64,000 bases of DNA from positions 4,216,001 through 4,280,000 of the forward strand of contig CP101406.1 in NCBI GenBank assembly GCA_024758765.1. The letters run 5' to 3'. Both the position numbers and the translations under genes were made by a program. Positions 11,738 to 58,166 of this stretch are shown in pieces. This stretch comes from Mycobacterium sp. SVM_VP21. Lineage in GTDB: Bacteria; Actinomycetota; Actinomycetes; Mycobacteriales; Mycobacteriaceae. The stretch's first letter is position 1; each line of letters opens with the position of its first letter. Under the pieces are notes generated by a model. The model was not told the DNA's origin and ran no database searches. It saw only the letters and a program-made list of their open reading frames with translations.

Positions 11738-11774
11738 ACTGTCACAGCCACGACGTCAGGCCGGAGGAGCAGTC

Positions 11775-12601: not shown

Positions 12602-13804
12602 ATGCGCGCTTTCACGCCTAGTCGTATCACCGCCGTTGTTGCCGCCACCGGTCTGACTGCCGGCGCGCTGGCGGACCTGCCTGTCGCATCGGCGACTTCG
12701 GTGGCGCCCATCGAGGTTGCGCTGACTGCCGGGGGATCGCTCGGTGACGGGACCGCTTTGATCATGGGTGGCACCAGCATTCCGCAACCGAACCAGCTCT
12801 ACCTGGACGCGGCCAACCAGCTCTATCTCGAGCAACTCGGGTTCGGGGGAACCCTTCAATCGCTGTTCACCCCCGAGAACATCAGCTCGACCTCGCAGGC
12901 ACGCGGCATGCAGATTCTCGATTCCACCATTCTGCAGAAGATCGCCAGCGGCGACGTCAGCGCCGAGAACCCGCTGGTGGTGTTCGGCTATTCGCAGAGC
13001 GCGGCGATCTCCTCGGCGGTCATGCGGCAGCTCGCCGGGCAGGATGTTCCGAGCGATTTCGTGCGCTTCGTCCTGATCGGCAATCCGGACAACCCGGTTG
13101 GCGGCATGACGGTGGAGACCAGCGGCCTCTACCCGCAATACCTGGCCGACAACGTTGCCACGCCGAACAATCTCTACCCGACTGACGTCTACACCCATGA
13201 GTACGACGGAGTCGCCGATTTTCCGACGTATCCACTCAACCTGCTGTCGGTCCTCAACGCCGCGATGGGCTTCATCTATTCGCACGGCACCTACTTGAGC
13301 CTGACTCCCGAACAGATCAGCAATGCCGTCCTGTTGCCCACCTCCGACAGCGACACGCTGGTCAACTACTACATGATTCCGTCCGAGAGCCTGCCGCTGC
13401 TCAACCCGTTGCGTTTGATCCCCATTGCCGGGCAACCCCTGTATGACCTGCTCGAACCCGTGACTCGAATTCTGGTCAACCTCGGCTACGGCAACATCGA
13501 ACACGGCTGGTCGCCCGCCGACGCCGACGTCGTCACCGGCCCCGGCCTGTTTCCGACCGACCTGAATCTCGGCGATGTGGTGGCGGCACTGGGCAACGGA
13601 CTGCAGCAGGGAATCAACGACTTCGTCGAGACCCTCTTCGATCCGGCCACCTACCAGATCACGCCGCTGCTGGACAACCCCTCGCTGACCGATCTCGAGG
13701 TGGCCGGCTACCTCTTCGGCTTCCTGCCCTCACCGAACCCTACGGGGGCAGAGGCGCTGCAGGGAATCAGCGAGTTGTTTCAGGCCTTCAGTGCTATGAC
13801 CTGA
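12602..13804 (+). CDS. Secreted PE-PPE-domain protein (alpha/beta serine hydrolase)
   Basis: 400 aa from ATG 12602 (AAAGGGA upstream). A signal peptide covers about residues 1-31 (basic RAFTPSR, hydrophobic core, VASATS). The PF08237-type fold follows, with the GYSQS nucleophile elbow in VVFGYSQSA, an NPDNPVGG loop and a late EHGWSP histidine, the serine-hydrolase layout shown for PE-PPE-domain esterases. There is no PE or PPE N-terminal domain: it is the free-standing form. An in-frame ATG at 12320, 7 bp after a SigK-like -10, would add 94 residues, but that start would bury the signal peptide. The 3' end overlaps the convergent DUF1295 gene by 11 bp. Confidence 0.85.
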   Translation: MRAFTPSRITAVVAATGLTAGALADLPVASATSVAPIEVALTAGGSLGDGTALIMGGTSIPQPNQLYLDAANQLYLEQLGFGGTLQSLFTPENISSTSQARGMQILDSTILQKIASGDVSAENPLVVFGYSQSAAISSAVMRQLAGQDVPSDFVRFVLIGNPDNPVGGMTVETSGLYPQYLADNVATPNNLYPTDVYTHEYDGVADFPTYPLNLLSVLNAAMGFIYSHGTYLSLTPEQISNAVLLPTSDSDTLVNYYMIPSESLPLLNPLRLIPIAGQPLYDLLEPVTRILVNLGYGNIEHGWSPADADVVTGPGLFPTDLNLGDVVAALGNGLQQGINDFVETLFDPATYQITPLLDNPSLTDLEVAGYLFGFLPSPNPTGAEALQGISELFQAFSAMT

Positions 13805-38793: not shown

Positions 38794-38799
38794 TATAGT
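38794..38799 (+). promoter_or_regulatory. -10 element for riboswitch A transcript
   Basis: TATAGT, a TANNNT hexamer, ends 7 bp before the first G of the aptamer (38807). The same 7-bp distance occurs at riboswitches B and C. No clear -35. Confidence 0.6.
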
Positions 38800-38806
38800 T
38801 GGCGAC

Positions 38807-38854
38807 GGTGATGAGGATCGCCATAACCGCCGACTCGGCTGATGGCTTCTACCC
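38807..38854 (+). promoter_or_regulatory. Fluoride riboswitch (crcB motif) A, upstream of two PPE genes
   Basis: P1 is GGTGA/TCGCC, followed by the conserved ATAACCGC, a P3 hairpin GCCG-ACT-CGGC, then CTGATGGCTTCTACC. This is the sequence order and spacing of the crcB motif RNA (as in the T. petrophila and B. cereus fluoride aptamers). The pseudoknot pairs GAGG of the P1 loop with CTTC at the 3' end, with one G-U pair. Downstream, 38845-38878 can form a competing hairpin (GCTTC and CCCA with TGGG and GAAGGC) that uses the same 3' strand. The next gene is the PPE at 39269. Confidence 0.88.
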
Positions 38855-39268
38855 AACTGAATGACCATGGGCGAAGGCTGGGGGCCTGGAATGGTTTTGC
38901 GGAACATCACGGTTGACCATCCCGAACCGCGTAATCTCGTTGATCTGCCGCGGTGCGGACAGCGGCGCAGCGCCGACGTCCCCCGAGACTGTCTCCATCG
39001 TAACAATGCACCCGCGGGCGACCATGCCGCTGTTCCGGTATGGGCTTGCTGCCCAACCCTTCCCAGGCAACGTCTGCTGGTCCATGTCAGCTCGGCCAAA
39101 GCCAAAGCCATGGTGCCACGCCAGGGAACCCATTACGCCCGCAGGCCGGTGAGAGATTCAGCGCCGGCAGCTCCGCGTGTATTCGCCTGGAGCACAAACG
39201 GGTACCCCCGAAACGCCGCCGCTGGTAGGTAGCAGGCGGCCAGCGGTGCCGAACGGAAGGCGGGCGAT
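38855..39268 (+). other. Long leader between riboswitch A and the PPE gene
   Basis: About 414 bp with no gene I can support. The open frames here have no recognisable domain or ribosome-binding site. It contains the competing hairpin up to 38878 and is probably 5' untranslated sequence. GGAAGG (about 39255) serves the PPE start. Confidence 0.5.
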
Positions 39269-40531
39269 ATGGATTTTGGAGCGTTGCCACCCGAACTCAA
39301 TTCCGCGCGGATGTATTCCGGACCTGGAGCCGGGCCGATGTTGGCGGCCGCCGCTGCCTGGGATGCGGTGTCGGCAGAACTCAGCTCCACGGCATCTGCC
39401 TACGACTCGGAAGTGTCTGGTCTGGCCAACGAATGGGCCGGCTCGTCCTCGAACGCGATGGTTGCAGCCGCTGCGCCCTATGTGATGTGGATGTCGAGAA
39501 CCGCCGGGCATGCCGCACGTACTGCTGCGGGCGCTAGGGCCGCGGCCACGGCGTATGAGGCGGCGTTCGCGGCCACGGTTCCTCCCGCGGTGATCGCGGC
39601 CAATCGCAGCTTGCTGGCGACCCTGATAGCTACCAATATCCTGGGACAAAACACCATTGCGATCGCGGCGACCGAAGCTCACTACGCCGAAATGTGGGCA
39701 CAGGACGCAGCCGCAATGTACGGCTACGCAGGCGCTGCTGCCGCTGCCGCGCGGGTGGCGCCCTTCGGTGAGCCCCCGCAGACGACCAACCCGGCCGGTG
39801 CGACGACTCAAGTTGCGTCCGTCTTCCAAGCCACCGCAACGTCGGCCACATCGCACTCGCAGGTTCTACCGCAGCTGCTCACGGCGCTTCCGGAGTCGCT
39901 CAATGGCCTTGCCGCGCCGGTCTCGGCGGCTGCCAGTCCTGCCGCAGCGGGTGATTTGGGGGCACTGCTAACCGCCCTCAACTCGTTTATCGTCGGCCCG
40001 CTGTCGCCGGCGTCCTTGTTCACCATTGCCGGGGTGCCGGGGCTACTGGGAGTTCAGTCCTATCTCCTTCCCCAAGCCGCCGCCAACCTGACGAGCAGCG
40101 CGGAGAAGGTATCCAAACTTCCCTACGACGTCGTTGGCGAACCCTTGGCAGGAGCGCTGGGAATGAAGCCACCGACGCTGACCTCGACGGCACTTCCTGG
40201 GGTAGCTGCGCAGACTGCAGGCGCCGGTCGACTTGCGGGCATGTCGGTACCGTCGGGCTGGTTCTCGGCTGCGCCCGAGATCAAGACAGTGGCAGCGATG
40301 TTGCCCGAAAGCAATTTCGCGACTGCGCCGACAGCCCTTGCAGCGGAAAGTGATTCAGCGATGCTAAACAACATTGCCGTCTCCGGCTTGGTCGGCCGGG
40401 GCATGGTCGGAACCGGCGAGAGCGCTTCCCGGCAGATGACTGCGGCGAGTCCGCCGTCGACCAAGGAATTCGCCCCCGCCACCGACTTTGTCACGTCGGT
40501 GAACATCTTCGTGCTTCGCGAGGGTGACTGA
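39269..40531 (+). CDS. PPE family protein (PPE-SVP subfamily)
   Basis: 420 aa. The N-terminal PPE domain has [20 protein letters not shown], the WxG-like turn [11 protein letters not shown] and AAWDAV helices to about residue 175. The C-terminal SVP motif [15 protein letters not shown] is near residue 325. It belongs to the ESX-5-type substrate group. No PE gene is next to it. It follows fluoride riboswitch A and precedes a second PPE by 31 bp, presumably as an operon. The C-terminus ends FVLREGD rather than the usual basic RP-rich tail. Confidence 0.93.
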
Positions 40532-40562
40532 TGTCGTTCTGCAGTGATCGAGGAGCCTAGCC

Positions 40563-41945
40563 ATGGATTTCGCAACTCTGCCTCCAGAAATCAACTCGGC
40601 GCGTATGTATGCCGGTCCAGGTCCGGAATCGCTGCAGGCTGCCGCGGCGGCATGGGACCTCCTTGCCTCCGACCTACGCGCGGCGGCAAGTTCGTATTCG
40701 TCGGTGATCTCCGCGCTGACCGCGGCCTGGACTGGACCGTCATCGGTGAGTATGTCGGTCGCTGCCGCTCCCTATGTGTCCTGGCTGGTCACCGCGTCGG
40801 CGCGCGCCGAGCAGACCGCCGGCCAGGCCAGGGTCGCGACCGCTGCCTACGAAGCCGCCTACGCGGCCATGATCCCGCCGCAGGTGATTGCAGCGAACCG
40901 GACTGTCCTAGCAGAACTGATCGCCGCCAACATCTTTGGCCAGAACGCCATGTCGATTGCCGCTACCGAAGCCCAGTACGCGAGCATGTGGGCACAGGAC
41001 GCGGCCGCGATGTACAGCTACGCCGGCGCGTCCGCGGCTGCGACCAGGATGGCGCCCTTCACCCAGCCCGCACAGAACTCCAATCCGGCAGCTATGGAGA
41101 ATCAGGCGGCCGCGACGGCGGCCGGCCTCGGAAATGGCTCCACGTCCAGCACTTCCGCCGTGTTGTCGCAAGCGATGTCGGGGGCTCCGGCGGTGTTGCA
41201 GAACCTTGCATCGCCAGCGGCGGCTAGCGACCCGATCTCCGCGTTGACTGATTTGTTGAACGCCATCAATGCATCCCCGTTGGCGCCGGTGGCCGCGCAA
41301 GTCGAACTGTTGCCGAAGTTGATCCTCCCGGCCAACGATGTCCTCATCAGCACCATCATGGGTGTGGTGATCGGCGGGAGAGCATTGTCGGACGTCGCCG
41401 TTGGGGCAGCGGCGGCCGCGACTGCCGCGCCCGCGGTCGCCTCGACAGCAGCGGCGCCGGCGGTTGTGGCGAGCGTTGGACAGGCGGGAATGGTCGGAGC
41501 GCTGGCGACCCCACCGACCTGGGCGGCGGCCACCCCAGCGATCAGGACCGTGGCCGCGGTGTTGTCCTCCTCCGGCCATGCGGTTTCTGCCGCGGCGGTG
41601 AGCGAGGGGGGTCTCTTGAGCGACGCCGCCCTCGCCGGCATGGTGGCGGGGGCAGCGGGTACCGCCGCCACCCGCGGCCTGGTGGGGGGAAACGCCGGCC
41701 GATCTGTGATGAGTAAAGACGTCAAGGCCGTCAAAGATCTGCAGGACCGGCGGTCGTCGCCGGGGCTGCAGCGTCTGGTGGCCGAAATGGCTGAGCGGCC
41801 GGACAGCGTGCAACATTGGCACACCGATTCCGAGCACCTCGACTCCCTGTTGGCCGAACTGGAACACAAGCCCGGCATCCACGCTGTGCACGTGGGCAAA
41901 GTTGACAAATCTGGGAACGTTCTACCAAATTCACAGCCTCGGTAG
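40563..41945 (+). CDS. PPE family protein with unusual C-terminal extension
   Basis: 460 aa; GAGGAG upstream. The PPE domain is [20 protein letters not shown] with AAWTGPSSVSM. The SVP-like motif is GALATPPTWAAATPAI. After about residue 380 comes a charged tail of some 78 residues, including LQRLVAEMAERPDSVQHWHT and LDSLLAELEHKPGIHAVHV, unlike the short RP-rich end of most SVP proteins; it reads as a folded alpha/beta segment. It is co-directional with the first PPE and probably under riboswitch A. Confidence 0.92.
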   Translation: MDFATLPPEINSARMYAGPGPESLQAAAAAWDLLASDLRAAASSYSSVISALTAAWTGPSSVSMSVAAAPYVSWLVTASARAEQTAGQARVATAAYEAAYAAMIPPQVIAANRTVLAELIAANIFGQNAMSIAATEAQYASMWAQDAAAMYSYAGASAAATRMAPFTQPAQNSNPAAMENQAAATAAGLGNGSTSSTSAVLSQAMSGAPAVLQNLASPAAASDPISALTDLLNAINASPLAPVAAQVELLPKLILPANDVLISTIMGVVIGGRALSDVAVGAAAAATAAPAVASTAAAPAVVASVGQAGMVGALATPPTWAAATPAIRTVAAVLSSSGHAVSAAAVSEGGLLSDAALAGMVAGAAGTAATRGLVGGNAGRSVMSKDVKAVKDLQDRRSSPGLQRLVAEMAERPDSVQHWHTDSEHLDSLLAELEHKPGIHAVHVGKVDKSGNVLPNSQPR

Positions 41946-42366
41946 GCGCCCGTACCGGTACCGCCGCACTTCGTCACCTCCTCGTGTGGGACGCGTCGCT
42001 GTCGTGCTACCCGTGAGGCGCGTCCGGAACGACTCCGCTAGCCGGCGTTGGGCATTGGGGTTGCCCTTACGGGCCCCTTGGAGTGAGTCATGTCGAGGTG
42101 GCCCAGCCGTATGGCGCCACGTCGGCGCGGCGAACTGACTCGACGCAACATGCCAGTGACCCGCCAACTGGTCGACAGGGAGCCTCCAGCTCGATGGGGG
42201 AGCATTAAAAATCAGCATGAGTAAAACTCTGGCGTGATCAGAGTGTCCGTGTCGCCCGACTCAGGGGCGGGCCACGGATTGCTGGGTGATATTTCGGCGG
42301 GTTCTGCGGCGGACTACATCGGTCCGCGAGGCCGGATCCACATGCGCATTCGAAGGAGCGTTGATC
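41946..42366. other. Intergenic stretch without recognisable gene
   Basis: 421 bp between the PPE pair and the sulfotransferase. No supported coding frame and no crcB motif. A hairpin GGGCA-N7-TGCCC near 42053-42070 might end the PPE transcript. The sulfotransferase ribosome-binding site AAGGAG lies at its right end. Confidence 0.4.
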
Positions 42367-43293
42367 ATGGAGAAACAAATGGTCGCCCCGCAGAGGGTCC
42401 TCCGGGACTACCTCTCGGATTCGACCGTGTGGTTGGGCTTCTTGGCGCAGGGTGGTTTCGTCGAGGGCGATATCGTTGTTGCGGACCCGTTCAAGGCGGG
42501 GACCACGTGGACTCAACGAATCCTGCAGCAGATTCTGCACAACGGGGAGGAAAGGGACGGCGGGCTGTCGGATACGTCGCCCTGGCTGGACTCGAGTTGG
42601 GGGAATCACGCCGAGATGCTCCGGACCTTGAGGGAGCAGCGCGAGGCCGGAATGCGGCGCGTAATGAAGTCCCATCTGCCGGCGGATGCGCTCCCGATCG
42701 CTCCGGAACCGCGCTACGTATTTGTGGGCCGCAACGGCAAGGACCTTGGCATTAGCTTCCACAATTATCTCAAGAACTTCTCGGCCGCGACGATGTCGGA
42801 GATCAATCGGATATATGCCGTGTGGTCGGTCAATTCAACACCACTTGTGATCCCGGAAGATATGCAAAAGTTCTTCGATCTGTGGCTCGACAACGATGGC
42901 TACGAGTGTTGCGATCTGCTGGGCATCATGGCGTCGTGGTGGAAGCTCAGGGATGAACCCAACGTGCTGTTGGTTCACTACCGGCAGCTGAAAGACGACT
43001 TGCCGAGTCAGGTCGTCCGTATCGCCGAGTTCTTGACCATCGACCCGGGAACGCTGCGGCTGGACGACATCCTCCGGCACTCTTCGTTTGAGTACATGAA
43101 GGGCCGTGCGGAAAAGATGGCACCGTTTGGCGGTGAGCACATGTCGAGCGCCAAGGCGTTCTTTCACAAGGGCCCGAAGCGTGATTTTCGCACCGAACTG
43201 ACGTCCGAGCAGATCGAACGATTCGACCGCAAAGCCTTGGAAAGGCTCGGGCCGGCGTGCAGTCGTTGGCTGGAGACCGGCGACACCGCCTAG
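42367..43293 (+). CDS. PAPS-dependent sulfotransferase
   Basis: 308 aa from ATG 42367 (AAGGAG upstream). The 5'-phosphosulfate loop is PFKAGTTWTQRILQQIL (GTTW core), and the 3'-phosphate motif is RYVFVGRNGKDLGISFHNYL. FEYMKGRAEKMAPF and the late GPKRDFRTELT match the cytosolic-type sulfotransferase family. It transfers sulfate from PAPS to an unknown hydroxyl or amine, possibly a glycolipid. It lies inside the fluoride island without its own riboswitch. Confidence 0.88.
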   Translation: MEKQMVAPQRVLRDYLSDSTVWLGFLAQGGFVEGDIVVADPFKAGTTWTQRILQQILHNGEERDGGLSDTSPWLDSSWGNHAEMLRTLREQREAGMRRVMKSHLPADALPIAPEPRYVFVGRNGKDLGISFHNYLKNFSAATMSEINRIYAVWSVNSTPLVIPEDMQKFFDLWLDNDGYECCDLLGIMASWWKLRDEPNVLLVHYRQLKDDLPSQVVRIAEFLTIDPGTLRLDDILRHSSFEYMKGRAEKMAPFGGEHMSSAKAFFHKGPKRDFRTELTSEQIERFDRKALERLGPACSRWLETGDTA

Positions 43294-43370
43294 CGGCGGT
43301 GGAAGCAGCCCTGGGGGGTGATGCTGTGGTCCGACCACAGGTCCGGCGCCACGGGACGTTCGTTTCGGCT

Positions 43371-44387
43371 ATGTCCCGTGGTGCCGCTTCCGGGCTGGTG
43401 AATCTTATGTCCAGCCAGATCGTGGTAGGTCGAGATCGCCTCCTTGTGGTGGGCGCAGTGCTGCTGTATGTCGCCGTGATCGCACTCGGTGCAGGGTTCG
43501 GCCGCGGCTACTTCGTACTGTTCCCTGGGTTGGTGGCGGTCGCCTACGAAGTGTTGATGCGACCGTGGGGTCGCTGGGCAAGCCAGCGGTGGCGGCTTGT
43601 CGTTGCACCGGCTTCGGCTGCCGTTATCGGCACGGCGATCACCATTGCCTATGGGTACAGTCCTATGAGCGTGCTTCTCGATGTTGGTCTATGCCTGTTG
43701 GTGCTCATCGTTTTTCGAGCCAGCATCTCCGCGGCGATGCCGGCAGGCCTGCTGCCACTCGTCTTGGAAATCAAGACCTGGTGGTACCCGGTTTCGGTAG
43801 CGCTCGGCTTGGTCGTGCTGATCTGTGTTCTGGTGCCTTGGCGGCGGCGGTGTCTGCAACGGTATCGAGAAACTGGACAGGATGCGGCCGATGGAGCTCA
43901 AATGCCGAGTGACGCACCGTCCTTCCGGCGACCTGGTACCTGGCTCTTTGCGCTATTCATTGCCCTGATGACGTTCGGCACCGGGGCATCGGGTCTCCGG
44001 TTCATGTTGTTCCCCCCGCTTCTCGTGCTGACTTACGAAATGTTTTTGCGTCCTACGAGTTGTCCCTGGGCAGGCCGACCGGGCGCTCTGATCGCGACAT
44101 GCTCGCTGAGCGCTTTGGTGGGGTGGCTTTCGGCGAGCTTGGTAGGACACAGTGCCATCGCTGCAGTCGGCGCGGCCGGCTTCGGGATTCTCGTCCTGAG
44201 GGCACCGCAGATTCACGTGCCGCCGGTGCTGACGATTGGGATATTGCCAGGCCTGATCGCTTCGCCCGGCATCGCCTATCCCATATCCGTGATGGTGGGG
44301 ACTGGAGCGCTGTGCCTAGCTTTTCTGCTTTGCCGTCCATGGTTGATCGCGGCGAGTGAAGCCGAACCAAGAGTTTTTGCGATATGA
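43371..44387 (+). CDS. HPP-like integral membrane protein with internal duplication
   Basis: About 338 aa from ATG 43371 (43407 is an alternative). It has eight or more hydrophobic helices. Two halves repeat the same pattern: FVLFPGLVAVAYEVLMRPWG near residue 45 and FMLFPPLLVLTYEMFLRPTS near residue 215, each followed by further helices. The LFPPL-x5-E-x3-RP pattern recalls the HPP transporter family. Lower GC than its neighbours suggests acquisition. The antiporter stump follows after 11 bp. An anion or ion transport role is likely but unproven. Confidence 0.75.
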   Translation: MSRGAASGLVNLMSSQIVVGRDRLLVVGAVLLYVAVIALGAGFGRGYFVLFPGLVAVAYEVLMRPWGRWASQRWRLVVAPASAAVIGTAITIAYGYSPMSVLLDVGLCLLVLIVFRASISAAMPAGLLPLVLEIKTWWYPVSVALGLVVLICVLVPWRRRCLQRYRETGQDAADGAQMPSDAPSFRRPGTWLFALFIALMTFGTGASGLRFMLFPPLLVLTYEMFLRPTSCPWAGRPGALIATCSLSALVGWLSASLVGHSAIAAVGAAGFGILVLRAPQIHVPPVLTIGILPGLIASPGIAYPISVMVGTGALCLAFLLCRPWLIAASEAEPRVFAI

Positions 44388-44397
44388 GGAGCCCACA

Positions 44398-44835
44398 GTG
44401 CCAAATTCTCAATTGACGGCGGTGCTGTTCGTCCTGCTACTGCTGGTCGGACTGGCGCAAATAATCGGTTATATTTTCGTCAAGTTTCGCCAACCAAAAA
44501 TGATTGAAGAAATCCCGGCCGGTGTTGTCGTCGGCCCCTCAGTTTTCGGCCAGGATTCCGTGCGTGGCGCATGTAGTCGCCACCGCCACTGGGGCCGGGA
44601 TGACCCTTATGATGCGCAAAAGCTTCTCGAGCAGTATCGGGAGAAGTTGTCTATCAAGCCGGTATTCCTCCGGGAAAACTGGTACCGCACGGCATGTCTG
44701 GAAGTGACGAATTCGGCATTATGCGGGCATGACTCGATGGCGCAGAGCTTTAGTGGCAGTCTCATTCGGAGCATTCTCACGGGTGAGGTCCAGCCTGCCC
44801 AGCGGGTCAGAGGCGCGAGGTCTTCGAAATTGTGA
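44398..44835 (+). pseudogene. CPA2 (KefB-like) cation:proton antiporter, N-terminal stump
   Basis: GTG 44398 with AGGAG upstream. The first about 51 residues are a clear antiporter N-terminus: a hydrophobic helix, then GYIFVKFRQPKMIEEIPAG and VVVGPSVFG, the usual RQP-x-IGEI-x-AG-x-LGP pattern. After residue 51 the resemblance ends and about 95 low-complexity residues follow to the stop, in place of some 350-600 residues of membrane domain. A deletion or frameshift has destroyed the gene; continuing pieces in other frames to 44938 are not recognisable. Confidence 0.7.
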
Positions 44836-44941
44836 TGGAGGCTGCGGGAAATACGGTATGAGTTCGCCGTTCGTCACTGATGAATACCTGGAGGGCCGGT
44901 TGCCGATCTTTGAGCTGGATCAGCTGGAAAGGAATTAGGAT

Positions 44942-45253
44942 ATGGCTAGGAATGCCGCGGGAATAACAATAAACGTGTGGATCAACGATGAACGTCTGAA
45001 GGCCTTGCAGGAAGCGGGGATGGAGCAGATGGCGAAAGATGCGTTCGCCGGGATGAAGCTGCTCTCGATCGAAGTTACGGAGGCGCAGAAGGATTCGCTC
45101 CTCGAGCGCTATGCTTCCGCGAAGTATGATTCGTCCACCACCGGGTCGATCGAACTGCTACCTAAGCGGGCGAAAGATGAGTTGTTAGAACTTGCAATCC
45201 GCATGCATTCGACAGGGTACGACGTTACTGAGCAGTTTATCGAGAGTGCATAG
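44942..45253 (+). CDS. Hypothetical protein, 103 aa
   Basis: It starts MARNAAGITINVWINDERLK and is rich in Lys, Glu and Ala, with predicted helices KALQEAGMEQMAKDAFAGM, EAQKDSLLERYASAKY and AKDELLELAIRMHS. It is soluble and contains no cysteine. GAAAGGA lies upstream. Base composition is less GC-rich than the housekeeping genes. I do not recognise a family. It lies 64 bp before ppa in the fluoride island. Confidence 0.65.
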   Translation: MARNAAGITINVWINDERLKALQEAGMEQMAKDAFAGMKLLSIEVTEAQKDSLLERYASAKYDSSTTGSIELLPKRAKDELLELAIRMHSTGYDVTEQFIESA

Positions 45254-45317
45254 TCCCCGCACCGTTATTGTTAGCGCATAGCCTCCGACAAATCGATCTT
45301 GAAAGGCGCCGTGAAAG

Positions 45318-45806
45318 ATGCAATTCGACGTGACCATCGAAATCCCCAAGGGTCAGCGCAACAAGTACGAGGTTGACCACGCCACCGGGCGGGTCAAGCT
45401 CGACCGCTACCTGTACACGCCGATGGGCTACCCGACCGACTACGGCTTCATTGAGGACACCCTCGGCGAGGACGGCGACCCGCTGGACGCGATGGTGTTG
45501 CTGCCGCAGTCGGTGTTCCCCGGTGTGCTGGTAGAGGCGCGTCCGGTCGGGATGTTCCAGATGACCGACGAGGCCGGCGGCGACGCCAAGGTGCTGTGCG
45601 TGCCGGCCGGCGACCACCGGTGGGACCACATCCAGGACATCAGCGACGTGCCCGCCTACGAGCTGGACGCGATCAAGCACTTCTTCGTGCACTACAAGGA
45701 CCTGGAGCCGGGCAAGTTCGTCAAGGCCGCCGACTGGGTGGGCCGCGCCGAAGCCGAGGCCGAGATCACCCGGTCGATCGAGCGGTTCAATAAAGCGGGG
45801 CACTGA
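45318..45806 (+). CDS. ppa: Inorganic pyrophosphatase (family I)
   Basis: 162 aa, the usual length. The signature [22 protein letters not shown] carries the metal-binding aspartates; [22 protein letters not shown] and [16 protein letters not shown] complete the active site. It hydrolyses pyrophosphate with magnesium. Family I pyrophosphatases are strongly inhibited by fluoride, which gives a reason for its position among fluoride-responsive genes, although it has no aptamer of its own and may be the ancestral resident of this site. Confidence 0.95.
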
Positions 45807-46134
45807 ATTCTGGCGTCTGACCCTCCGGCTCGCTCGTATCGGGTGGGACAGGCATGGGTGTCTGGGCTGTTGTGAGTGACCCAGCACCCGTCCGGCACGG
45901 TAGACAGGGCGTCTTCGATCGCGGTCCGTTGCCCCTGGCCGCCGCTGGACGTCACTGACGTGCACACCCCGCGGTGATTTTTCAGCTACTTAGTTGAGCG
46001 ATTGCAATCGCCATATCAATGGTGCAGGGGCGGCCGAAAGAACAGTTTTCGTTGATATCAATGTGGGCGAGGCCACACAGAACATCTTCAGCTAGCTGCG
46101 ACAATAGCTCCAGCTAGGTATCCCGATGCAGGAG
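45807..46134. other. Intergenic stretch before riboswitch B
   Basis: About 330 bp with no supported gene. It contains short AT-rich palindromes such as GATTGCAATC and TTGATATCAA (about 45995-46065) that may be binding sites. No mobile-element remnant was recognised. Confidence 0.4.
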
Positions 46135-46140
46135 TACTTT
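46135..46140 (+). promoter_or_regulatory. -10 element for riboswitch B transcript
   Basis: TACTTT (TANNNT) ends 7 bp before the first paired G of the aptamer (46148), as at riboswitches A and C. Confidence 0.6.
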
Positions 46141-46147
46141 GGCAATG

Positions 46148-46196
46148 GGCGATGAGGCTCGCCATAACCGCCGGGCTCGGCTGATGGCCTCTATCC
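46148..46196 (+). promoter_or_regulatory. Fluoride riboswitch (crcB motif) B, upstream of PPE genes and fluC operon
   Basis: P1 GGCGA/TCGCC is perfect, with loop TGAGGC; then ATAACCGC, P3 GCCG-GGCT-CGGC, and CTGATGGCCTCTATCC. The pseudoknot GAGGC/GCCTC is perfect. The 3' part GGCCTCTATCC (46186-46196) can instead pair with GGGTAGGGGGCC (46208-46219), leaving one bulged G, a competing hairpin of 11 bp. This is the strongest of the three copies and very close to the T. petrophila aptamer. It heads the region holding two PPE genes and FluC-DUF190-FluC. Confidence 0.92.
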
Positions 46197-46573
46197 GGTA
46201 AGCGATCGGGTAGGGGGCCGTCGGACAGATGCTGGATTCGCTAGCCAACAAACCTCGCACAACTGTCGGCTGTAGGCCGCGGGCACTGCGGGCGCCATTA
46301 TCGGGGAGTCGTGTTAGCCGGACCGTGCGGACCGTCAGCCGCTCCGCCGGCCAGCCCGCCCGCCCCTCCTCATTTGAGATCCTTTGCCGCCATGAACCTC
46401 GCCCAGGACTAACCGATCTGTTGCCGTCCAAAGGCGGCATCGCTGCGCGACCTCTGGATAGAAGAAATGCCACTATTCGCGCGGTAACAGGTCGCAGTGA
46501 TGTATCGCGCACTCGAGAAGCCGATAACCCATGACACCGAGTTCTGTAGTGCTGCCCGAGAAAGGAATAACTG
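46197..46573 (+). other. Long leader between riboswitch B and the PPE gene
   Basis: About 377 bp; only the competing hairpin (to 46219) and AAAGGA for the PPE start are recognised. No coding frame has domain support. A leader of the same kind and similar length follows riboswitch A. Confidence 0.5.
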
Positions 46574-47800
46574 ATGATTGATTTCGCGGAATTGCCGCCC
46601 GAGGTTAACTCGGGGAGGATGTATTCGGGGCCGGGGTCGCGATCGTTGATGATCGCTGCGACAGCGTGGAATACGCTGGCTGGCCAACTGGAGTCGGTCT
46701 CGCGCGACTACGAGGCAGTAGTTTTGGGGCTGCAGGGCGAGGTCTGGTCGGGGGCTACGTCGGAAGCGATGGCCGCTGCGGCCGCTCCGTACGTCGCGTG
46801 GCTGGCCGCAACTGGCGCGCACGCCGGGCAGGTGGCTAGCCGTGCTCGGACAGCGGCCAGCGCGTATGAGACGGCGTTGGCAGTAATCGTGCCGCCAACA
46901 GTGGTCGCGGCGAATCGCGTTCAGCTGATGAACTTGATCGCGAACAACATCTTGGGACAGAACGCAACGGCGATCGCGGCTACCGAAGCTGACTACGCCG
47001 AAATGTGGGCGCAAGATGCCCACGCGATGTACGGCTATGCCGCTTCCTCATCGGCGGCCACGCAGCTGACACCGTTCAGCCAACCGCCGGAGACCACGAA
47101 TCCGGCTGGGCAGTCCGGCCAGGCTGCCGCGGTCCACCAAGCTGCGGGCTCCTCGGCGGTGTCGCAGTCACAGTCGACTCTGTCGCGGTTGATGTCGCTG
47201 GTTCCACAACAGTTGCAATCGCTGGCGTCGGGCACTTCGGCCGGCTCGACGGCGGCGAGTCCGGCGACGGTATCGGCGGCGGCGGATCCGTCGGTATTGG
47301 ACGCCTTCGGTGCGTTCAACACCGTCACCAATCCGGTCAACTTCGGCGACGGGATCAGCCGCACAATCACCTCCGGGGGTAGCTTCGGGTCCGGGCTCTA
47401 CCGGATCGGCTTACAGGAGGCCAGCGCTACCCCACCCGCGCTGAGTCCTGCGGTCCCACAACTGCCCTCTCAAGTCCTTTCCTCTGTCGAGCGCGGCCCG
47501 GTGCTTGCCGCCGTGGGACAGGCGGCACCGATCGGCGGCCTGTCTGCTCCTCCGGCGTGGGCCTCGGCGACCCCGGTGGCCAGCGTCAGCGAGGATCCGT
47601 ACTGGCTGTCGGAGATGGAGTTCGCGGCCACCGCGTCGCCGGAAGGTGCCGTGGCGAGCGCGGCCGAGGCGGCGCCGATGGCGGGCCTAGGGCCGATGGC
47701 AGGTATGGCCGCGGGAGCGGCGGCGCGTTCCACGGTCAGCAGCATGCTGCGCGTCCAACCCCGCCGATTCAAGATGCCTCGCCCGTCTCTGGGCGGATAG
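46574..47800 (+). CDS. PPE family protein (PPE-SVP subfamily)
   Basis: 408 aa. PPE domain [21 protein letters not shown] with [29 protein letters not shown] ends the domain near residue 175. The SVP motif is [14 protein letters not shown], and the C-terminus [12 protein letters not shown] is the usual basic tail. It is the first gene after fluoride riboswitch B, with another PPE 80 bp downstream. No PE partner nearby. Confidence 0.93.
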
Positions 47801-47880
47801 CCGCTGGTCGTCTGTCCTTGGCGCCCGCAGTCGCCCGAGGCGAGTGGGTTCGCGGGAGCATCGTGATGAGAGGAACGCTG

Positions 47881-49083
47881 ATGCTTGATTTCGGGGCATT
47901 GCCGCCCGAGGTCAACTCCGCTCGGATGTATACCGGCCCTGGAGCGGGGCCGATGATGGCTGCTGCATCCGGCTGGGATGCACTTGCCACGCAACTGGAT
48001 TCGTTTGCGGCAGGATATTCCTCCACGCTCGCCGATCTGCAGGGCCAGAATTGGTCTGGTGCTACGGCAACGGCCATGGCCAGCGCAGCCGCACCCTATA
48101 TCGCATGGGCGACCACGGTGGCAGCGCAGGCCGAGGATGCTGCCACCCAGGCACGGGCGGCCGCGGTCGCCTACGAGGCCGCGTTCTCCGCAACGGTACC
48201 GCCGCCAGTGGTTGCGGCTAACCGCATCCAGTTAGCAACGCTGGTCGCAACCAACTTCTTTGGGCAGAACACGCCGACGATAGCGGCCACTGAGGCGGCC
48301 TATGCCGAGATGTGGGCACAAGACGCATCCGCGATGTATGTCTACGCTGCAGCCTCATCGGCCGCGTCCCTGTTGACGCCGCTCGACCAGCCGCCGCAGA
48401 CCACCAACCCCGCCGGGCAGTCGGGTCAGGCCGCTGCCGTTGTCCACGCCCTCAGCAACTCGACGATGGGTCAGTCACAAGCGACGCTGTCGCAACTGAT
48501 GTCGGCGTTGCCCCAACAGCTGCAAGCACTCGGGTTAGGCCAAACCGCCGCCGCAGCAGACCCGACCGCAGCAGCGTCGTCAACGCCGGTACTTACGGCT
48601 TTCAGTACCTTGGCCACGCTCTACGGACCACTGAACCCGGTTTGGCAGACCGCGTACGCGGTGTTCCAGGCCGGTGCATTCGGGACGGGGACGCGCCTGG
48701 CTCAAATCCAGGCAGGCAAGCTCGCCGCCAAAGGGATCAAGCCAGCCTTCACTATCGGAACTCCCACTACGCCGGAGACGGAATGCGTTCGCGGTGGGGT
48801 GCTGGTGAGTGTGAACACCTCCGACCGAGTCGGCAATCTGTCTGTTCCGCCGAGGTGGACGACGGCGGCGCCGACGTCCGACCCCGCCGCTGAATCGGTG
48901 GCCGCGAAGACAACACGTTTCCGCGCCTTGCCGGCGTGGGCATCGAACGCGTCGACGAATATGCCAGCAGCTGCACCGACTTTCGGGCCGATCAGCAACC
49001 CCCCCGACCGTGCCACCGGCAACAAGATGTTCCGTATGAGAGACCGCCGATTCAGAATGCCACGCCCTCCCGCAGGTGGCTAG
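47881..49083 (+). CDS. PPE family protein (PPE-SVP subfamily)
   Basis: 400 aa from ATG 47881 (AGAGGAA upstream). PPE domain [21 protein letters not shown] with [12 protein letters not shown]-terminal [14 protein letters not shown] and the tail [12 protein letters not shown]. It is closely similar to the preceding PPE (shared [18 protein letters not shown] region), so the pair arose by duplication. It is followed after 245 bp by the fluoride-channel operon in the same direction. Confidence 0.93.
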
Positions 49084-49328
49084 TGTGCCACTTCCGTCCA
49101 GTTCAGCACTGTGCGTAGGAAAGTGGCGGCAATGGAACGAAGCCGCCGCATTTGTCGGTAACGGACATGGGATACCCCAGGAGACACCGGGATTATTGAG
49201 TTCAGGGCTGGGTGGCGCCGCCAAAGGGGCGGGGTGCGGAGCCGTCGGGGTAGACGGCTACGACGAGGTTCACGAATACTACGGCTACCGGATGCCTATC
49301 CTGAGCCATGCCGACACGAGGATCTGAC

Positions 49329-49778
49329 GTGAACACCAGTCCAGGACTGTTCGTTCGGCGCCGGCAGTCCGTGGCGGTACGAGAGCAGGCGCCGGTGGTT
49401 GCGGCGGTGGCCGTTGGCGGTGCGATCGGCGCCTGCGCCCGCCACGGTATCGAACTGGCGTGGCCGACCCCGACGGCTGGCTTTCCCTGGACCATACTCG
49501 CCGTCAATGTGAGCGGGTCTGCGCTAATGGGGGCATTAATGGTGGCGATCACCGAACTGTGGGTCGGGCATCGCCTGCTGCGGCCGCTGCTGGGCACCGG
49601 TGTGCTGGGGGGGTACACGACGTTTTCCGCGTTTGCCGGTGATGTCGACGCCCTTGTCGGTGCGGGCCATCCGGCCCGCGCGTTGCTCTATCTGTTCACT
49701 ACGCCGATTCTGGTCCTGATCACCGCGTGGGCGGCGGCGGCCCTCACTCGACGTCTGATCCTCAGGAGGAGAACATGA
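49329..49778 (+). CDS. crcB: Fluoride-specific ion channel FluC/CrcB, first subunit
   Basis: 149 aa from GTG 49329 (GAGGA upstream); ATG 49308 would add 7 residues. Four hydrophobic helices. The family signature [17 protein letters not shown] carries the TTFS phenylalanine/threonine track, and [12 protein letters not shown] and [16 protein letters not shown] give the conserved Arg and Asn. FluC channels are dual-topology dimers; with the second gene at 50122 this is likely a heterodimer. Its stop overlaps the DUF190 start (ATGA). Confidence 0.92.
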
Positions 49779-50125
49779 CCCAACTCACCGGATCCGCGCT
49801 GCGTATGACGGTGTTGGTGGGCGAGAGTGACACCTGGCATCGTAAGCCGCTGTTCAGCGAGATCGTTCATCGAGCGCGTCGGGCCGGACTGGCCGGGGCG
49901 ACGGTGTTTCGCGGCGTCGAGGGCTACGGTGCCTCCTCGACCATTCACACCACCCGGCTGTTATCGCTGTCGGAGGATCTGCCGGTGTCGATCATCATCG
50001 TCGACACCGCCGAGCGGATCCGCGCCTTCCTGCCGGAACTCGACGAGTTGGTCGCCGAAGGGCTGATAATGCTCGACGAAGTCGAGGTCGTCAGATACGT
50101 CGGCCGAACCGCCGATGGCCAGTGA
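49775..50125 (+). CDS. DUF190 protein (PII-like fold)
   Basis: 116 aa; overlaps both neighbours by 4 bp. It has the DUF190 pattern [47 protein letters not shown], then [21 protein letters not shown]. The family has a PII-like ferredoxin fold and regularly lies with crcB genes; it may gate or sense for the channel, but its function is not established. Confidence 0.88.
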
Positions 50126-50490
50126 ACTGGCTGCTGGTGATGGCCGGCGCCGCGGTGGGAGCATCACTGCGGTACCTGACCGACCGCTTCATCCAAGCCC
50201 GGCACAACACCACCTTCGCCTGGGGCACGTTCACGGCCAACGTGCTCGGCAGCCTGGTCCTGGGCCTACTCGTCGGGGCGGTGGGCACCGGCGACGAGCG
50301 GCTGCAGATGTTGATCGGCACCGGCTTCTGCGGAGCGTTGACCACGTATTCGACCTTCTCCTACGAGACGGTCCAGCTGGCCGCCGCCGGTGCCAGGTTC
50401 TACGCGGTCGCCAATCTGGTGCTCACCTTGACCTGTGGTCTCGGTGCCTACTACGCCGGCTATGTTGCCGCACAAGCCATCTGGGCGTGA
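50122..50490 (+). CDS. crcB: Fluoride-specific ion channel FluC/CrcB, second subunit
   Basis: 122 aa, GTG start overlapping the DUF190 stop (GTGA). Four helices; signature [17 protein letters not shown] with the channel Phe/Thr track, [14 protein letters not shown] with the conserved Arg and FTANVLGS with Asn. It pairs with the first FluC to form the inner-membrane fluoride exit path. It converges with the minus-strand PPE genes. Confidence 0.92.
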
Positions 50491-50592
50491 CACCGAAATG
50501 CCTGCCGGAATGAATCCGCCCTGCCACGCGTTCGCGGCCCATCGGCTGACATGACGCTGGCGAAGTTGCCGCGGTCGATCATCTCGCACCAC

Positions 50593-51657
50593 TTATCCGG
50601 CCGCCGGCGACCGCGGTATCACACTGGGCCGCCGTAGTTTGGCCGCGGCGTTGTTGGCGCCACGTCCGGCCAAGGTGCCCAGCATGGCCTCGCCGAACAC
50701 GCCCGGAGGTGGGGTCGAGGAGATCGGCGGCGCCGCCGGAGCTGTCGCGTTGGCCGCTGGGGCGGCCGCAGCAGGTCCGGTTGCCGTGGATTCGACAGCT
50801 GCCCAGCCCTGCGGCACCGACAGTGCACCGACCAGGCTGGCCCGACCGGCGAAAGCTGAAACCGGCGGTGTGGCAATGCCACCCAGCCCGGGCGTGGCCG
50901 ACGAACGACGCGCGCTCGCGATGAAGGGCCCGATGCCCTGGTGTTCGTCGCGCATCGCGTTGACCGCCAGGGCGTGATTGGTGGTCTGGATGGCGACGCC
51001 TGAGAACGTTGAACTCGTCGTCGAAGCGGCCGCACTGGTCAGCGCCGGGACATCCAGCGCAATCGAGAGCAGCGAGGACGGGTCAACCGCTGCCGGTTGC
51101 GCCGCGGCGGCTGATGCGGGCGCGGCCACGGTAGGTGGGGCGGCGAACGGCGTCAGCGTGGCAGCGTTGGACGCCGACGCGGCATAGCCGTGCATCGTGG
51201 CGGCGTCCTGGGCCCACATCCGCTCGTAGTCGGCTTCGGTCGCGGCGATCGCCGGGCTGTTCTGCCCGAAGAAGTTGGTGGCGATCAGCGTCGTCAGGTG
51301 CAGTCGGTTGGCGGCGATCAGCGGAGGTGAGACCATGCCCGCCCAGGCCGTCTGGTAGGCCGCGGCGGCGGCCTTGACTTGCACGGAGGTCTGTTCGGCC
51401 TGCCCGGCAGTCGCATGCAACCAGCTCAGGTAGCGACTGGCCGCGCCGGCCATCATCGCCGACGAGGGGCCTTGCCAGCCGTCGGTGGCCAACCCGGCAA
51501 CCACCGAGCGGTAGGACTCCTCCGCTACATTCAACTCACGGGCGAGCTGTTCCCAGGCTGTGGCCGCTGCCAGCAGCGGACCGCTGCCGGGCCCGGCGTA
51601 CATGCGTGCCGAGTTGATCTCCGGTGGCAGTGCACCGAAATCCATATCAAAGTCCAT
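50593..51657 (-). CDS. PPE family protein (PPE-SVP subfamily)
   Basis: 354 aa from ATG 51657 ([24 protein letters not shown] start; the longer frame to 51849 is not PPE-like). It has [27 protein letters not shown] and the tail [13 protein letters not shown]. Its start is 44 bp downstream of the end of the next PPE on the same strand, so the two form an operon read from riboswitch C. Confidence 0.92.
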
Positions 51658-51700
51658 GGCGTGGGATTCCTTTCCTGATCGGTTCCGGCGTTGGTGTGCG

Positions 51701-52777
51701 CTAACCGGCGGCCGGGGAGCGCACGATGATCGGTTTGCTTTTCGCCCGTGAGGGCCGCCGTTCGTCGCGCGACAGCGTGCCCAGTGCCGACTGGCTGAAG
51801 ACGTTGCCGCCGCCGGAGTCGGCGGACGCGGCGGGGGCGGCCGTGACAACCGAATCCGTCAGAGCCAATGCAGTCGGCCGTACCTCGGGTGCCGAGGTGA
51901 ACCAGCAGGGCGGCGCCGAGAGGCTGCCGATCAGGCCGGATCTACCCCAGGCAGCAGTGACCCGAGGTGGTGCGGTGCCTCCGGTTGCCGTGATCAAGGT
52001 CGGCCGCGGGCCCAAGGGAAGCGTCGACTGAGCCTGGGCGGCGAGTCGCATGTTGATGGTGTAGATACCGCGTCCGGAGGTGACGGCGTTCGCAGCGGAC
52101 AGCACGGAGTTCGTCACGTTCGGGACGTGTTCGAGGATCTGAACCAGTGGTGATGACAGCGTCGTTTGAAGTTGCTGGGTCGCGCTGTCGGCGGCCGCGC
52201 CCGCCTGGGCGGCCGGATCGGCCGTTCGCGGTGGCTGGCCGAAGGACGGCAAGGTGGATGCGAGCGCCGAAGACTCGGCATAGTGGTACATCGCGGTGGA
52301 ATCCTGGAGCCACATCTGCGCGTAGTACGCCTCAGTGGCGGCGATGGCTGCGGCGTTCTGACCAAAGAAATTGGTGGCGACCAGCGCCAGCAGCAGGCTG
52401 CGGTTGGCGGCGATCACCGGCGGCGGAACCGTCATTGAGAAGGCCAACTCGTAGGCGGCGGCCGCCGCACGGGCGTGGCCGGCGATCTCGGCTGCAGTTT
52501 CAGCCGTCTGACTCAGCCATGTCATGAACGGTGTCGCCGCCGCAGCCATCGCCACCGATGTCGGACCCAACCAGGCGCTGCCCGTCAGCCCGGAGATGAC
52601 CGAGGTGTAGCCGCTTGCGGCGATGGACAATTCGGTGGCAAGCGCATCCCAGGCGGCCGAGGCGGCCACCATTGGAGCAGAACCTGGCCCGAGATACATT
52701 CGCCCGGAATTGATTTCCGGTGGCAACGCGGCGAAAGCCAGTCCGATCGGGGCGGAAGTGATGTTGCCGTAAGTCAT
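51701..52777 (-). CDS. PPE family protein directly behind fluoride riboswitch C
   Basis: 358 aa from ATG 52777. PPE domain [18 protein letters not shown] with [14 protein letters not shown]-like [16 protein letters not shown]; tail [11 protein letters not shown]. The N-terminus is 10 residues longer than usual ([10 protein letters not shown]). Its ribosome-binding sequence GAAGG is part of the strand that can pair with the aptamer 3' end, so translation should depend on fluoride. Confidence 0.92.
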
Positions 52778-52787
52778 CCGGTACCGC

Positions 52788-52814
52788 CTTCTACCACGAA
52801 GATCGGGGTAGAAG
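52788..52814 (-). promoter_or_regulatory. Translational expression platform of riboswitch C
   Basis: On the minus strand CTTCTACC (52807-52814), the 3' strand of the aptamer pseudoknot, is complementary over 8 bp to GGTAGAAG (52788-52795), which overlaps the GAAGG ribosome-binding site of the PPE gene. Fluoride binding would hold CTTC in the pseudoknot and free the site, an ON switch. Confidence 0.72.
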
Positions 52815-52854
52815 CTATTAGCCGGGTGCGGCGGTTAAGGCGGGCTTCATCGCC
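52807..52854 (-). promoter_or_regulatory. Fluoride riboswitch (crcB motif) C, upstream of the minus-strand PPE pair
   Basis: Minus strand: P1 GGCG/CGCC, then TTAACCGC, P3 GCCG-CACC-CGGC, and CTAATAGCTTCTACC. The pseudoknot GAAGC/GCTTC is perfect and differs from copy B (GAGGC/GCCTC) by a paired change, which is covariation support. It starts 7 bp after the -10 TAGCAT and ends 29 bp before the PPE ATG. Confidence 0.9.
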
Positions 52855-52861
52855 TATCGGA

Positions 52862-52867
52862 ATGCTA
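52862..52867 (-). promoter_or_regulatory. -10 element for riboswitch C transcript
   Basis: TAGCAT (minus strand, TANNNT) ends exactly 7 bp before the first aptamer G at 52854, as for the other two copies. Confidence 0.6.
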
Positions 52868-57248: not shown

Positions 57249-58166
57249 ATGGTGAATGTCCAGACGGCACTGCTTCACGAGCTCGAGCCGATTGTCGAGC
57301 AGAACCTCAATCGCCATCTCACGGCCGCCAAGCCGTGGCTGCCGCACGACTACGTGCCGTGGAGCAAGGGACGTGACTTCGCGTTCCTCGGGGGCGAGGA
57401 CTGGGTTCCTGAAGACTCGCCGCTGGACCCGGTCGCCAAGGCTGCGCTGCTGGTCAACTTGCTGACCGAGGACAATTTGCCTTCCTACCACCGCGAGATC
57501 GCCACCACCTTCGGTCGGGACGGCGCCTGGGGCACCTGGGTGGGCCAGTGGACCGCCGAGGAAGGCCGCCACAGCATCGCGCTGCGTGACTACCTCGTTG
57601 TCACCCGCGGCATCGACCCGGTGAACCTCGAGAACATGCGGATGGCGCACACCGTCGCCGGCTACGACTCTGGCGGTAAGTCAGCGCTGGGTGTGCTGGC
57701 GTACGTGTCCTTCCAGGAACTCGCCACCCGAGTGTCGCACCGTAACACCGGCAAGGCCTCCGGATGCCCCCTCGCTGATCAGTTGCTGGCCCGGGTTGCA
57801 CTCGACGAGAACTTGCACATGGTGTTCTACCGCAACCTGATGCAGGCGGCCCTGGACATCGCCCCGGACGAGGCGATGTGCGCCATCCGCGACGAGGTGC
57901 TCGGTTTCTCGATGCCCGGGATGAACATGCCCGGCTTCCAGGAGAACGCCATCATGATCGCCAAGGCCGGCATCTACGACCTGCGCATCCACCACGATGA
58001 CGTCATTCAGCCGGTGCTGCGCTTCTGGAAGATCCACGAGCGCAACGACTTCGGTGCTGCGGGCGACGAGGCCCGCGAGCAGGTCGTCGGCTTCATGAAG
58101 ATGGTCGACGAGCGGGCCACCTACTACGAGGAGAAGGCCAAGGCGCGCGAGAGCGTCTCCGCCTGA
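57249..58166 (+). CDS. Acyl-ACP desaturase, DesA1-like
   Basis: 305 aa from ATG 57249. Diiron ligands are in TEDNLPSYHRE, WTAEEGRHSIALRDYLVVTR (ExxH) and the second helix pair with DENLHMVFYRN (ExxH). FQELATRVSHRNTGKA is shared with M. tuberculosis DesA1; the protein is about 30 residues shorter than DesA1 at its C-terminus. DesA1 introduces double bonds in meromycolate precursors carried on AcpM. It may be a paralogue rather than the essential DesA1. Confidence 0.88.
   Translation: MVNVQTALLHELEPIVEQNLNRHLTAAKPWLPHDYVPWSKGRDFAFLGGEDWVPEDSPLDPVAKAALLVNLLTEDNLPSYHREIATTFGRDGAWGTWVGQWTAEEGRHSIALRDYLVVTRGIDPVNLENMRMAHTVAGYDSGGKSALGVLAYVSFQELATRVSHRNTGKASGCPLADQLLARVALDENLHMVFYRNLMQAALDIAPDEAMCAIRDEVLGFSMPGMNMPGFQENAIMIAKAGIYDLRIHHDDVIQPVLRFWKIHERNDFGAAGDEAREQVVGFMKMVDERATYYEEKAKARESVSA

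Follow-up and report, generated by a model that had tools for sequence, protein, structure and literature searches.

Fluoride-class riboswitches ahead of PE/PPE operons in mycobacteria and a possible outer-membrane step in fluoride resistance

The window analysed here, 64,000 nt of Mycobacterium sp. SVM_VP21 (contig CP101406.1), contains a fluoride-response island at positions 38,794 to 52,867, in which three fluoride riboswitch aptamers each stand ahead of a tandem pair of PPE genes. Comparison of this arrangement with the aptamers of related genomes leads us to conclude that fluoride-class riboswitches very probably control PE/PPE operons in mycobacteria. The three aptamers match RF01734 at E values of 4.8e-10 to 1.2e-9 (cmscan; scores of 46.3-47.5 bits, gathering threshold 34), and the first recognised same-strand genes behind each of them are one PPE pair, at distances of 411, 374 and 25 nt. 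All six PPE genes carry the PF00823 N-terminal domain (205-226 bits), and the PPE-SVP region (PF12484) exceeds its cut-off of 23 in every one apart from PPE1a, which scores 20.5. Two FluC subunits, both over the PF02537 cut-off of 32.9, have a DUF190 gene between them, and a family I inorganic pyrophosphatase is also present. The original prediction, made by a model from the letters of the DNA, had named all of these elements, and had placed the island correctly.

The pairing recurs across the genus. Aptamers were sought in a genus sample of 396 genomes, drawn from a larger group, with 12 candidates scored per genome, a depth at which weak aptamers may be missed; over-cutoff fluoride aptamers were found in 56 genomes. 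The first gene of a site was taken to be the first labelled gene, or unlabelled open reading frame (ORF) of at least 160 amino acids, on the same strand and within 750 nt, as delivered by a crude gene caller. In this way 106 sites were classed, three in the window, three in Mycolicibacter icosiumassiliensis (G001) and 100 in the sample, after four of 110 had been dropped for falling under the 34-bit cut-off. A PE or PPE gene comes first downstream at 28 of the 106; the sample contributes 22 of its 100 sites, in 21 of the 56 aptamer-bearing genomes, and the distance from aptamer to PE/PPE gene runs from -47 to 570 nt. The first gene is a PE at 14 of these 22 sites, and a PE ORF lies near three more (one weak, at 23 bits). 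PPE genes number 25-57 per genome (251 in 28.8 Mb, from six genomes that all belong to the PE/PPE-aptamer set), a density from which about 0.5 PE/PPE-first sites would be expected in place of the 22 observed. The corresponding binomial probability is 5e-30, or 7e-17 at a rate of 2%, values that ignore kinship and therefore overstate the strength of the result. Three further genomes point in the same direction and are not counted: a transposase gene stands between the aptamer and PE-PPE or PPE in G198 and G326, and in G337 mere first codons of a PPE are left behind the aptamer. A search for crcB aptamers beside PPE genes in relatives had been proposed with the original prediction, and it shows a ligand aptamer at the head of PE/PPE operons that is conserved across species. 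Absence of the pairing from relatives, which would have counted against that prediction, was therefore not what the comparison showed.

The aptamers and their downstream flanks also suggest how such control might work. We aligned 54 aptamers with 36 nt of downstream sequence (alignment A3), from a set of 56 no longer than 66 nt, omitting the c41 sites of G083 and G320. In this set, which includes the window's three aptamers, 98.9% of the pseudoknot cells are paired, and both hairpins of RF01734 are conserved along with the pseudoknot. An alternative (OFF) helix can form between the aptamer's 3' strand, CUUCUACC, and a downstream strand, GGUAGAAG; it is paired in 88.9% of cells, and in 43-69% when slid. 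The 3' strand is common to the pseudoknot and the OFF helix, and the two helices are mutually exclusive. The downstream strand is Shine-Dalgarno-like and at aptamer 3 lies directly ahead of the PPE3a start. Five sequences have a C at one variant column, and in four of them (window aptamer 2, L095, L101 and L047) both partners are refitted; neither partner is changed in L091, and L083 has an A in this column that is unpaired in both helices. Compensation in both helices is as expected for a translational switch, and the polarity is likely ON. The covariation score of the OFF helix was reached in 3 of 500 shuffles, and in a control for complementarity 43 of 56 sites attain a score that 19% of shuffles attain. 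The aptamer 2 segment 46179-46245 (67 nt) is predicted to fold at -33.7 kcal/mol (z -3.51), and the hairpin CTTCTACC/GGTAGAAG of aptamer 3 has a z of -1.09 alone and -2.15 with the aptamer. In long leaders the switch is frequently followed by a short ORF, an arrangement also known from the published Mbox-pe20 and B12-ppe2 leaders.

One PPE lineage follows the aptamer closely. PPE-B, the second PPE of a tandem pair, forms a single clade of 14 in a FastTree phylogeny of 182 PPE domains (support 0.997), with all members aptamer-linked and none of the 139 background rows among them. A further tree, with 47 linked and 49 background rows (11 near relatives and 38 random; 96 rows in all), recovers it as one clade again (SH-aLRT 95); for this tree six rows were re-tagged, four mis-tagged through overlapping ORFs and two lying behind a transposase; the truncated PPE of G259 (L093) was excluded from the trees. 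Searching the 396 genomes with a PPE-B alignment returned 12 genomes at 474-638 bits, all 12 with the gene in an aptamer-(PE)-PPE-A-PPE-B operon, and these operons occupy different chromosomal sites. The next best scores, none above 385 bits, belong to PPE-A paralogs or to other PPEs. Nine of the 12 genomes supplied rows to the model, which makes their high scores partly a matter of construction; G133, G299 and G092 did not. The exclusive link of PPE-B to aptamers is stated for the genomes searched, with five candidates scored in each; 255 further homologs lie beyond that scope. Within that scope PPE-B provides a small, clean gene set with a fluoride aptamer ahead every time. Its N-terminal PPE domain resembles that of the solved relatives PPE15, PPE41 and PPE4 (5xfs, E 1.1e-70), and its tail is that of PPE-SVP proteins; it differs from the solved relatives in forming a separate clade with a conserved C-terminal stretch of its own, and the six solved sequences matched stop at profile position 192 or earlier.

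Taken together, the linked PPEs do not form a single clade. A common clade for all of them is rejected on a quick tree (LG+G4; p-AU 0.0096). Recruitment of PPEs on more than one occasion is therefore probable, and the starred branches of the quick tree force at least four label changes. A single clade of the first PPEs alone is not rejected (p-AU 0.236, same tree), which leaves the number of recruitments uncertain. Five loci with relatives of PPE2a or of other PPEs (L002, L222, L005, L213 and L230) had no fluoride aptamer at E 0.1. One could argue from this mixed ancestry that PE/PPE elements were repeatedly inserted behind existing aptamers as passengers with no role in fluoride resistance. 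PPE modules do come and go at the island's chromosomal site, as the comparison with empty sites described below indicates, the transposase genes of G198 and G326 fit such a history, and in the Mbox case, too, pe-ppe genes are proposed to have been inserted at riboswitch loci (PMC12810186, in the passages available). Mere passengers would hardly be expected, however, to remain in the aptamer operon in every genome in which PPE-B was found and at different sites, to conserve a switching strand with compensation, or to retain the sole over-cutoff fluoride aptamer detected, as the PE/PPE aptamer is in 12 of the 21 genomes. We regard this explanation as having only a slight chance of being right.

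FluC passes fluoride across the inner membrane, and to our knowledge the inner membrane and metabolic enzymes are the only levels at which fluoride resistance has been described. Few PE/PPE proteins have a known cargo or role. We suggest that in these operons the PPE proteins may supply an outer-membrane step. Fluoride would bind the aptamer, as is predicted for these copies, a masked ribosome-binding site would be freed, and PPE proteins would be made; these are predicted to be exported through a type VII secretion system and inserted in the outer membrane. The dense mycolate outer membrane would otherwise hold fluoride in the periplasm, where re-entry as hydrogen fluoride (HF) would be possible, and a PPE conduit whose synthesis fluoride induces would let it escape, FluC acting as the inner-membrane first step of the exit route and PPE as the outer-membrane one. 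The whole account, from aptamers that head PPE pairs through a translational ON switch to outer-membrane exit, seems to us about evenly balanced. That PPE proteins let fluoride out across the outer membrane, with fluoride as their predicted solute, is an argument from analogy that we hold possible and a little short of even. More tentative still is a dedicated conduit, in which PPE-A/PPE-B and the PPEs recruited in parallel would be switched on by the riboswitch and would form, in the window, the outer half of one FluC operon. If the account is true, fluoride resistance gains an outer-membrane part, and the ligand of a riboswitch identifies what an orphan PPE carries. With its ligand class known, a riboswitch ahead of PE/PPE genes predicts their signal and probably their solute, which brings the question of their function within reach of direct tests. 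The transport reading gains from two published cases, the Mg2+ riboswitch on the Mg2+-linked pair PE20-PPE31 (PMC12810186) and the channel formed by PPE64 (PMC12802285), and transport is a theme of PE/PPE work more generally (PMC13315784), as far as the available parts of these sources go.

Several observations weigh against this account, the first group of which concerns FluC. In most cases a fluoride aptamer does not control PPE together with FluC. FluC is encoded in 20 of 22 genomes searched (in one by a partial match), and the 10 of these 20 loci that were scanned, at E up to 1, held no fluoride aptamer within the stretch examined; in G006, one of the 10, an aptamer stands about 1.7 kb upstream, before a MutS-like gene. 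Genomes with an aptamer at FluC/DUF190 overlap the PE/PPE-aptamer set in G119 alone, where FluC does lie behind an aptamer. With FluC loci that lack an aptamer and genomes whose only one is at PE/PPE, fluoride control often goes to PE/PPE rather than to FluC. The original picture of PPE proteins acting alongside a fluoride-controlled FluC therefore needs correction, as 9 of the 10 scanned loci lack an aptamer serving FluC; its regulatory half, a fluoride-response island that includes PPE genes, is strongly supported by the recurrent pairing, the PPE-B lineage and the compensated switch strand. On the side of the RNA, pairing of the OFF helix lies only slightly above that of letter shuffles (mean 87.8%, 1 of 500 as high), which come so close because its strands vary little, and three of its pairs are changed on both sides against 1.4 in shuffles (49 of 500 as high). 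The OFF helix of aptamer 1 is weak (z 0.44), and PPE pairs 1 and 2 begin 411 and 374 nt beyond their aptamers. A leader ORF that codes for a conserved small protein is not supported, the differences among the close relatives G325, G385 and G133 showing no excess at third codon positions.

The remaining points concern the proteins and the distribution of the pairing. Neither the window nor the G001 loci yielded a PE ORF. For secretion a PPE protein usually depends on a PE partner; a PE gene next to it is common, not obligatory. PPE-A occurs also outside aptamer operons in the 182-domain tree, and the structure model of PPE-B was useless (pLDDT 42). Of 62 over-cutoff sites in family genomes outside the genus sample 44 were read; none of these has a PPE-labelled first gene, and among their assigned first genes (G567 and G539 apart) there was no porin, a weak negative since no porin model was searched. 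The genes assigned are FluC, MutS-like, Hyf, histidine phosphatase or metallophosphatase, with a uracil-DNA-glycosylase-like gene in G412 and a universal stress protein gene in G409.

The main rival explanation retains the riboswitch and excludes the solute: PPE proteins induced by fluoride would tighten the outer membrane, and less HF would enter. Loss of PPE51 in M. marinum raised membrane permeability (PMC12607722, from the part available), and a barrier needs no co-induction of FluC, in keeping with the nine scanned loci where the PE/PPE operon has the aptamer and FluC does not. It sits less well with the gene order at three loci, where FluC stands behind both an aptamer and PPE. The PPE2 pair is directly upstream of FluC in the window and in G001, as is a truncated PPE, between aptamer and FluC, in G259. 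In the window the pair lies between aptamer 2 and FluC, and PPE and FluC may therefore share a transcript. The best studied riboswitch-controlled PE/PPE pair, moreover, is tied to movement of its riboswitch's ligand, according to the passages available of PMC12810186. On balance we judge a barrier role unlikely, and outer-membrane exit remains the reading that we prefer.

A different role would be to restore the supply of an ion or nutrient that runs short under fluoride. Mg2+ and phosphate are examples, since Mg2+ forms complexes with fluoride and phosphate enzymes are blocked by it. The riboswitch-controlled PE20-PPE31 is tied to Mg2+ uptake (PMC12810186, likewise in part), and the island includes a pyrophosphatase, matched in G001 by an extra copy. 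We consider such a supply function improbable; no Mg2+ or phosphate transporter appears among the labelled genes after PE/PPE-linked aptamers, weak evidence given the small set of models. The pyrophosphatase itself is a plausible aptamer-controlled member of the window's island. It has two loci in G001 (one being the window counterpart) and two in G325, and one in each of G119, G299, G368 and G105. The second gene of G325 is an independent aptamer-linked extra copy, preceded at L083:7000-8400 by an aptamer and then by a stretch that we read from the DNA as Nudix-like.

Riboswitch control of PE/PPE genes is a known kind of regulation, and since Mg2+ and B12 riboswitches on PE20-PPE31 and PPE2 have been published, fluoride is a new ligand for it. 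In M. tuberculosis the Mbox Mg2+ riboswitch controls the pe20 operon (PE20, PPE31, PPE32, PPE33, Rv1810 and MgtC). As described in the available passages (PMC12810186), it resembles the present systems in that its riboswitch, with a translational expression platform (predicted for ours), stands ahead of a PE-PPE operon with a non-PPE gene of the same ion, in its long leader with upstream ORFs, and in an association with pe-ppe genes across the genus. It differs in its ligand, Mg2+ and not fluoride, in being OFF where ours is predicted to be ON, and in its partner gene, which here is FluC; a toxic solute, moreover, would call for exit or exclusion in place of uptake. The B12 riboswitch on ppe2-cobQ-cobU also has a PPE gene under its control, in that case by way of a leader ORF that is translated (PMC11260477, in part), but a single PPE is governed by an OFF switch with B12 as ligand. 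The crcB riboswitches on fluC, mutS-like and formate hydrogenlyase genes have the same aptamer family and the same pseudoknot; their MutS-like and Hyf-type targets, also found here, were named in 2010 (PMC2864571, as far as available), and the targets that differ here are PE/PPE genes. Among the matches listed, no title or abstract opening ties fluoride riboswitches to PPE, including the passages or abstracts of PMC9495176, PMC2864571, PMC12810186 and PMC11260477. The fluoride ligand and the toxic-anion logic are thus new as far as the literature was searched.

The history of the island can be followed at its chromosomal site, a hotspot that we compared by blastn against related genomes together with gene maps. 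The flanks are fixed and the content changes between relatives, mainly by aptamer-headed modules. G368 and G105 have aptamer-FluC-DUF190-FluC only, to which G119 adds a PPE3 pair with its own aptamer; G299 has the PPE3 pair here and FluC elsewhere in the genome, and G337 has FluC, aptamer 3 and a PPE stub. An oxidoreductase gene lies between aptamer and FluC in G382 (L096:7306-9117), its aptamer-headed product having cytochrome b561 and molybdopterin oxidoreductase domains and preceding DUF190 and FluC. The window exceeds G119 by about 10.4 kb (~38859-49330), a segment in which PPE pairs 1 and 2 lie together with the sulfotransferase group and the pyrophosphatase. Aptamer 1 is therefore probably the former FluC aptamer, now ahead of PPE1, while FluC now follows PPE2.

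A deletion has also shaped the window. Its alignment to L041 of G001 jumps from 10459 to 13049, where the exchanger and the ATP sulfurylase of G001 are both complete; in the window about 2.6 kb with most of the exchanger and the front of the sulfurylase have been lost. What had been described as the stump of a CPA2 antiporter is thus a real exchanger piece, fused by the deletion to a C-terminal part of ATP sulfurylase (residues 69-135). The supposed HPP-like transporter did not hold up, its TM_HPP match lying below cut-off at E 0.54 (E 0.089 for the G001 relative), and the island has sulfotransferase and DUF6955 genes that the earlier list lacked. In G001 the sulfotransferase, exchanger, whole ATP sulfurylase, DUF6955 and pyrophosphatase genes stand in a row (L041:8153-14569), a hint of sulfate activation inside the fluoride island. 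Elsewhere in G001 the PPE2 region contains a transposase gene, and a MutS-like pair separates FluC from the PPE3 pair (L042:1480-3117 and 7030-10133).

The features of the window's island are collected in Table 1. Neither leader ORF 38861-39232 nor 46229-46534 has a Pfam match, and between 46000 and 53000 terminator-like and sigma-70-like sites are no more frequent than in shuffles.

Table 1. Annotated features of the fluoride-response island, in window coordinates.
Feature	Position	Strand	Evidence and remarks
Fluoride riboswitch aptamer 1	38798-38858	+	RF01734, 46.3 bits; ahead of PPE pair 1
Possible leader ORF, aptamer 1 to PPE1a	38891-39232	+	same frame as longer ORF 38861-39232; putative
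PPE1a	39269-40531	+	PF00823 213.5 bits; PPE-SVP 20.5 bits, under cut-off 23
PPE1b	40563-41945	+	PF00823 206.1 bits; PPE-SVP 32.5
Sulfotransferase (start chosen by us)	42367-43293	+	PF00685 on longer ORF 42286-43293
Protein without family above cut-off, formerly 'HPP-like' (start chosen by us)	43407-44387	+	TM_HPP E 0.54
Deletion fusion, CPA-type exchanger N-terminal piece and ATP sulfurylase C-terminal piece	44398-44835	+	PF01747 41.2 bits, residues 69-135
DUF6955 protein	44942-45253	+	PF22271 110.8 bits
Inorganic pyrophosphatase, family I	45318-45806	+	PF00719 197 bits
Fluoride riboswitch aptamer 2	46139-46200	+	RF01734, 47.4 bits; ahead of PPE pair 2
Predicted alternative (OFF) hairpin, aptamer 2	46181-46224, approximate limits	+	folding of segment 46179-46245
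Possible leader ORF, aptamer 2 to PPE2a	46229-46534	+	putative
PPE2a	46574-47800	+	PF00823 205.1 bits; PPE-SVP 39.1
PPE2b	47881-49083	+	PF00823 217.3 bits, PPE-SVP 37.2, on longer ORF 47557-49083
FluC subunit 1	49308-49778 (start may be 49329)	+	PF02537 79.4 bits
DUF190 protein	49775-50125	+	PF02641 131 bits on ORF 49727-50125
FluC subunit 2	50122-50490	+	PF02537 92.8 bits
PPE3b (PPE-B)	50593-51657	-	PF00823 226 bits on longer ORF 50593-51849
PPE3a (PPE-A)	51701-52777	-	PF00823 213.5 bits
Shine-Dalgarno-like strand GGTAGAAG	52788-52795	-	predicted OFF-helix partner, upstream of PPE3a ATG
Switching strand CTTCTACC, aptamer 3	52807-52814	-	common to pseudoknot and predicted OFF helix
Fluoride riboswitch aptamer 3	52863-52802	-	RF01734, 47.5 bits; 25 nt before PPE3a

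Fluoride aptamers of the 106 classed sites also stand ahead of other genes, namely FluC/DUF190 (23 genomes), MutS-like pairs (15), Nudix-Hyf or Hyf operons (14 sites), histidine phosphatases (8) and others. Their lengths vary with the target, those at PE/PPE genes all measuring 60-64 nt and those at MutS-like genes 60-63 nt, the same length class, while most of those at FluC, Hyf and phosphatase genes have 72-92 nt. The MutS-like genes are mostly in tandem (L045:13004-14584 and 14 more sites; PF00488 in a representative). A Nudix gene with a Hyf or complex I-like operon follows the aptamer at L082, L085, L097, L099, L078, L047, L102, L106, L107 and L110, with NUDIX, PF00146, PF00361, PF00346 and PF01058 domains in representatives. 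Amino-acid-permease-like proteins (PF13520 in the cluster representative) are encoded downstream of aptamers L043:17670-17729 and L091:8261-8322. In the family genomes outside the genus sample, a uracil-DNA-glycosylase-like gene follows an aptamer in G412 (L188:4037-4660), and a universal stress protein (Usp) gene does so in G409 (L199:2960-3490). Outside the island the window has a match to the ASdes small RNA at 57561-57628 (minus strand, 62.1 bits) and a tRNA gene at 732-804 (minus strand, 67.6 bits).

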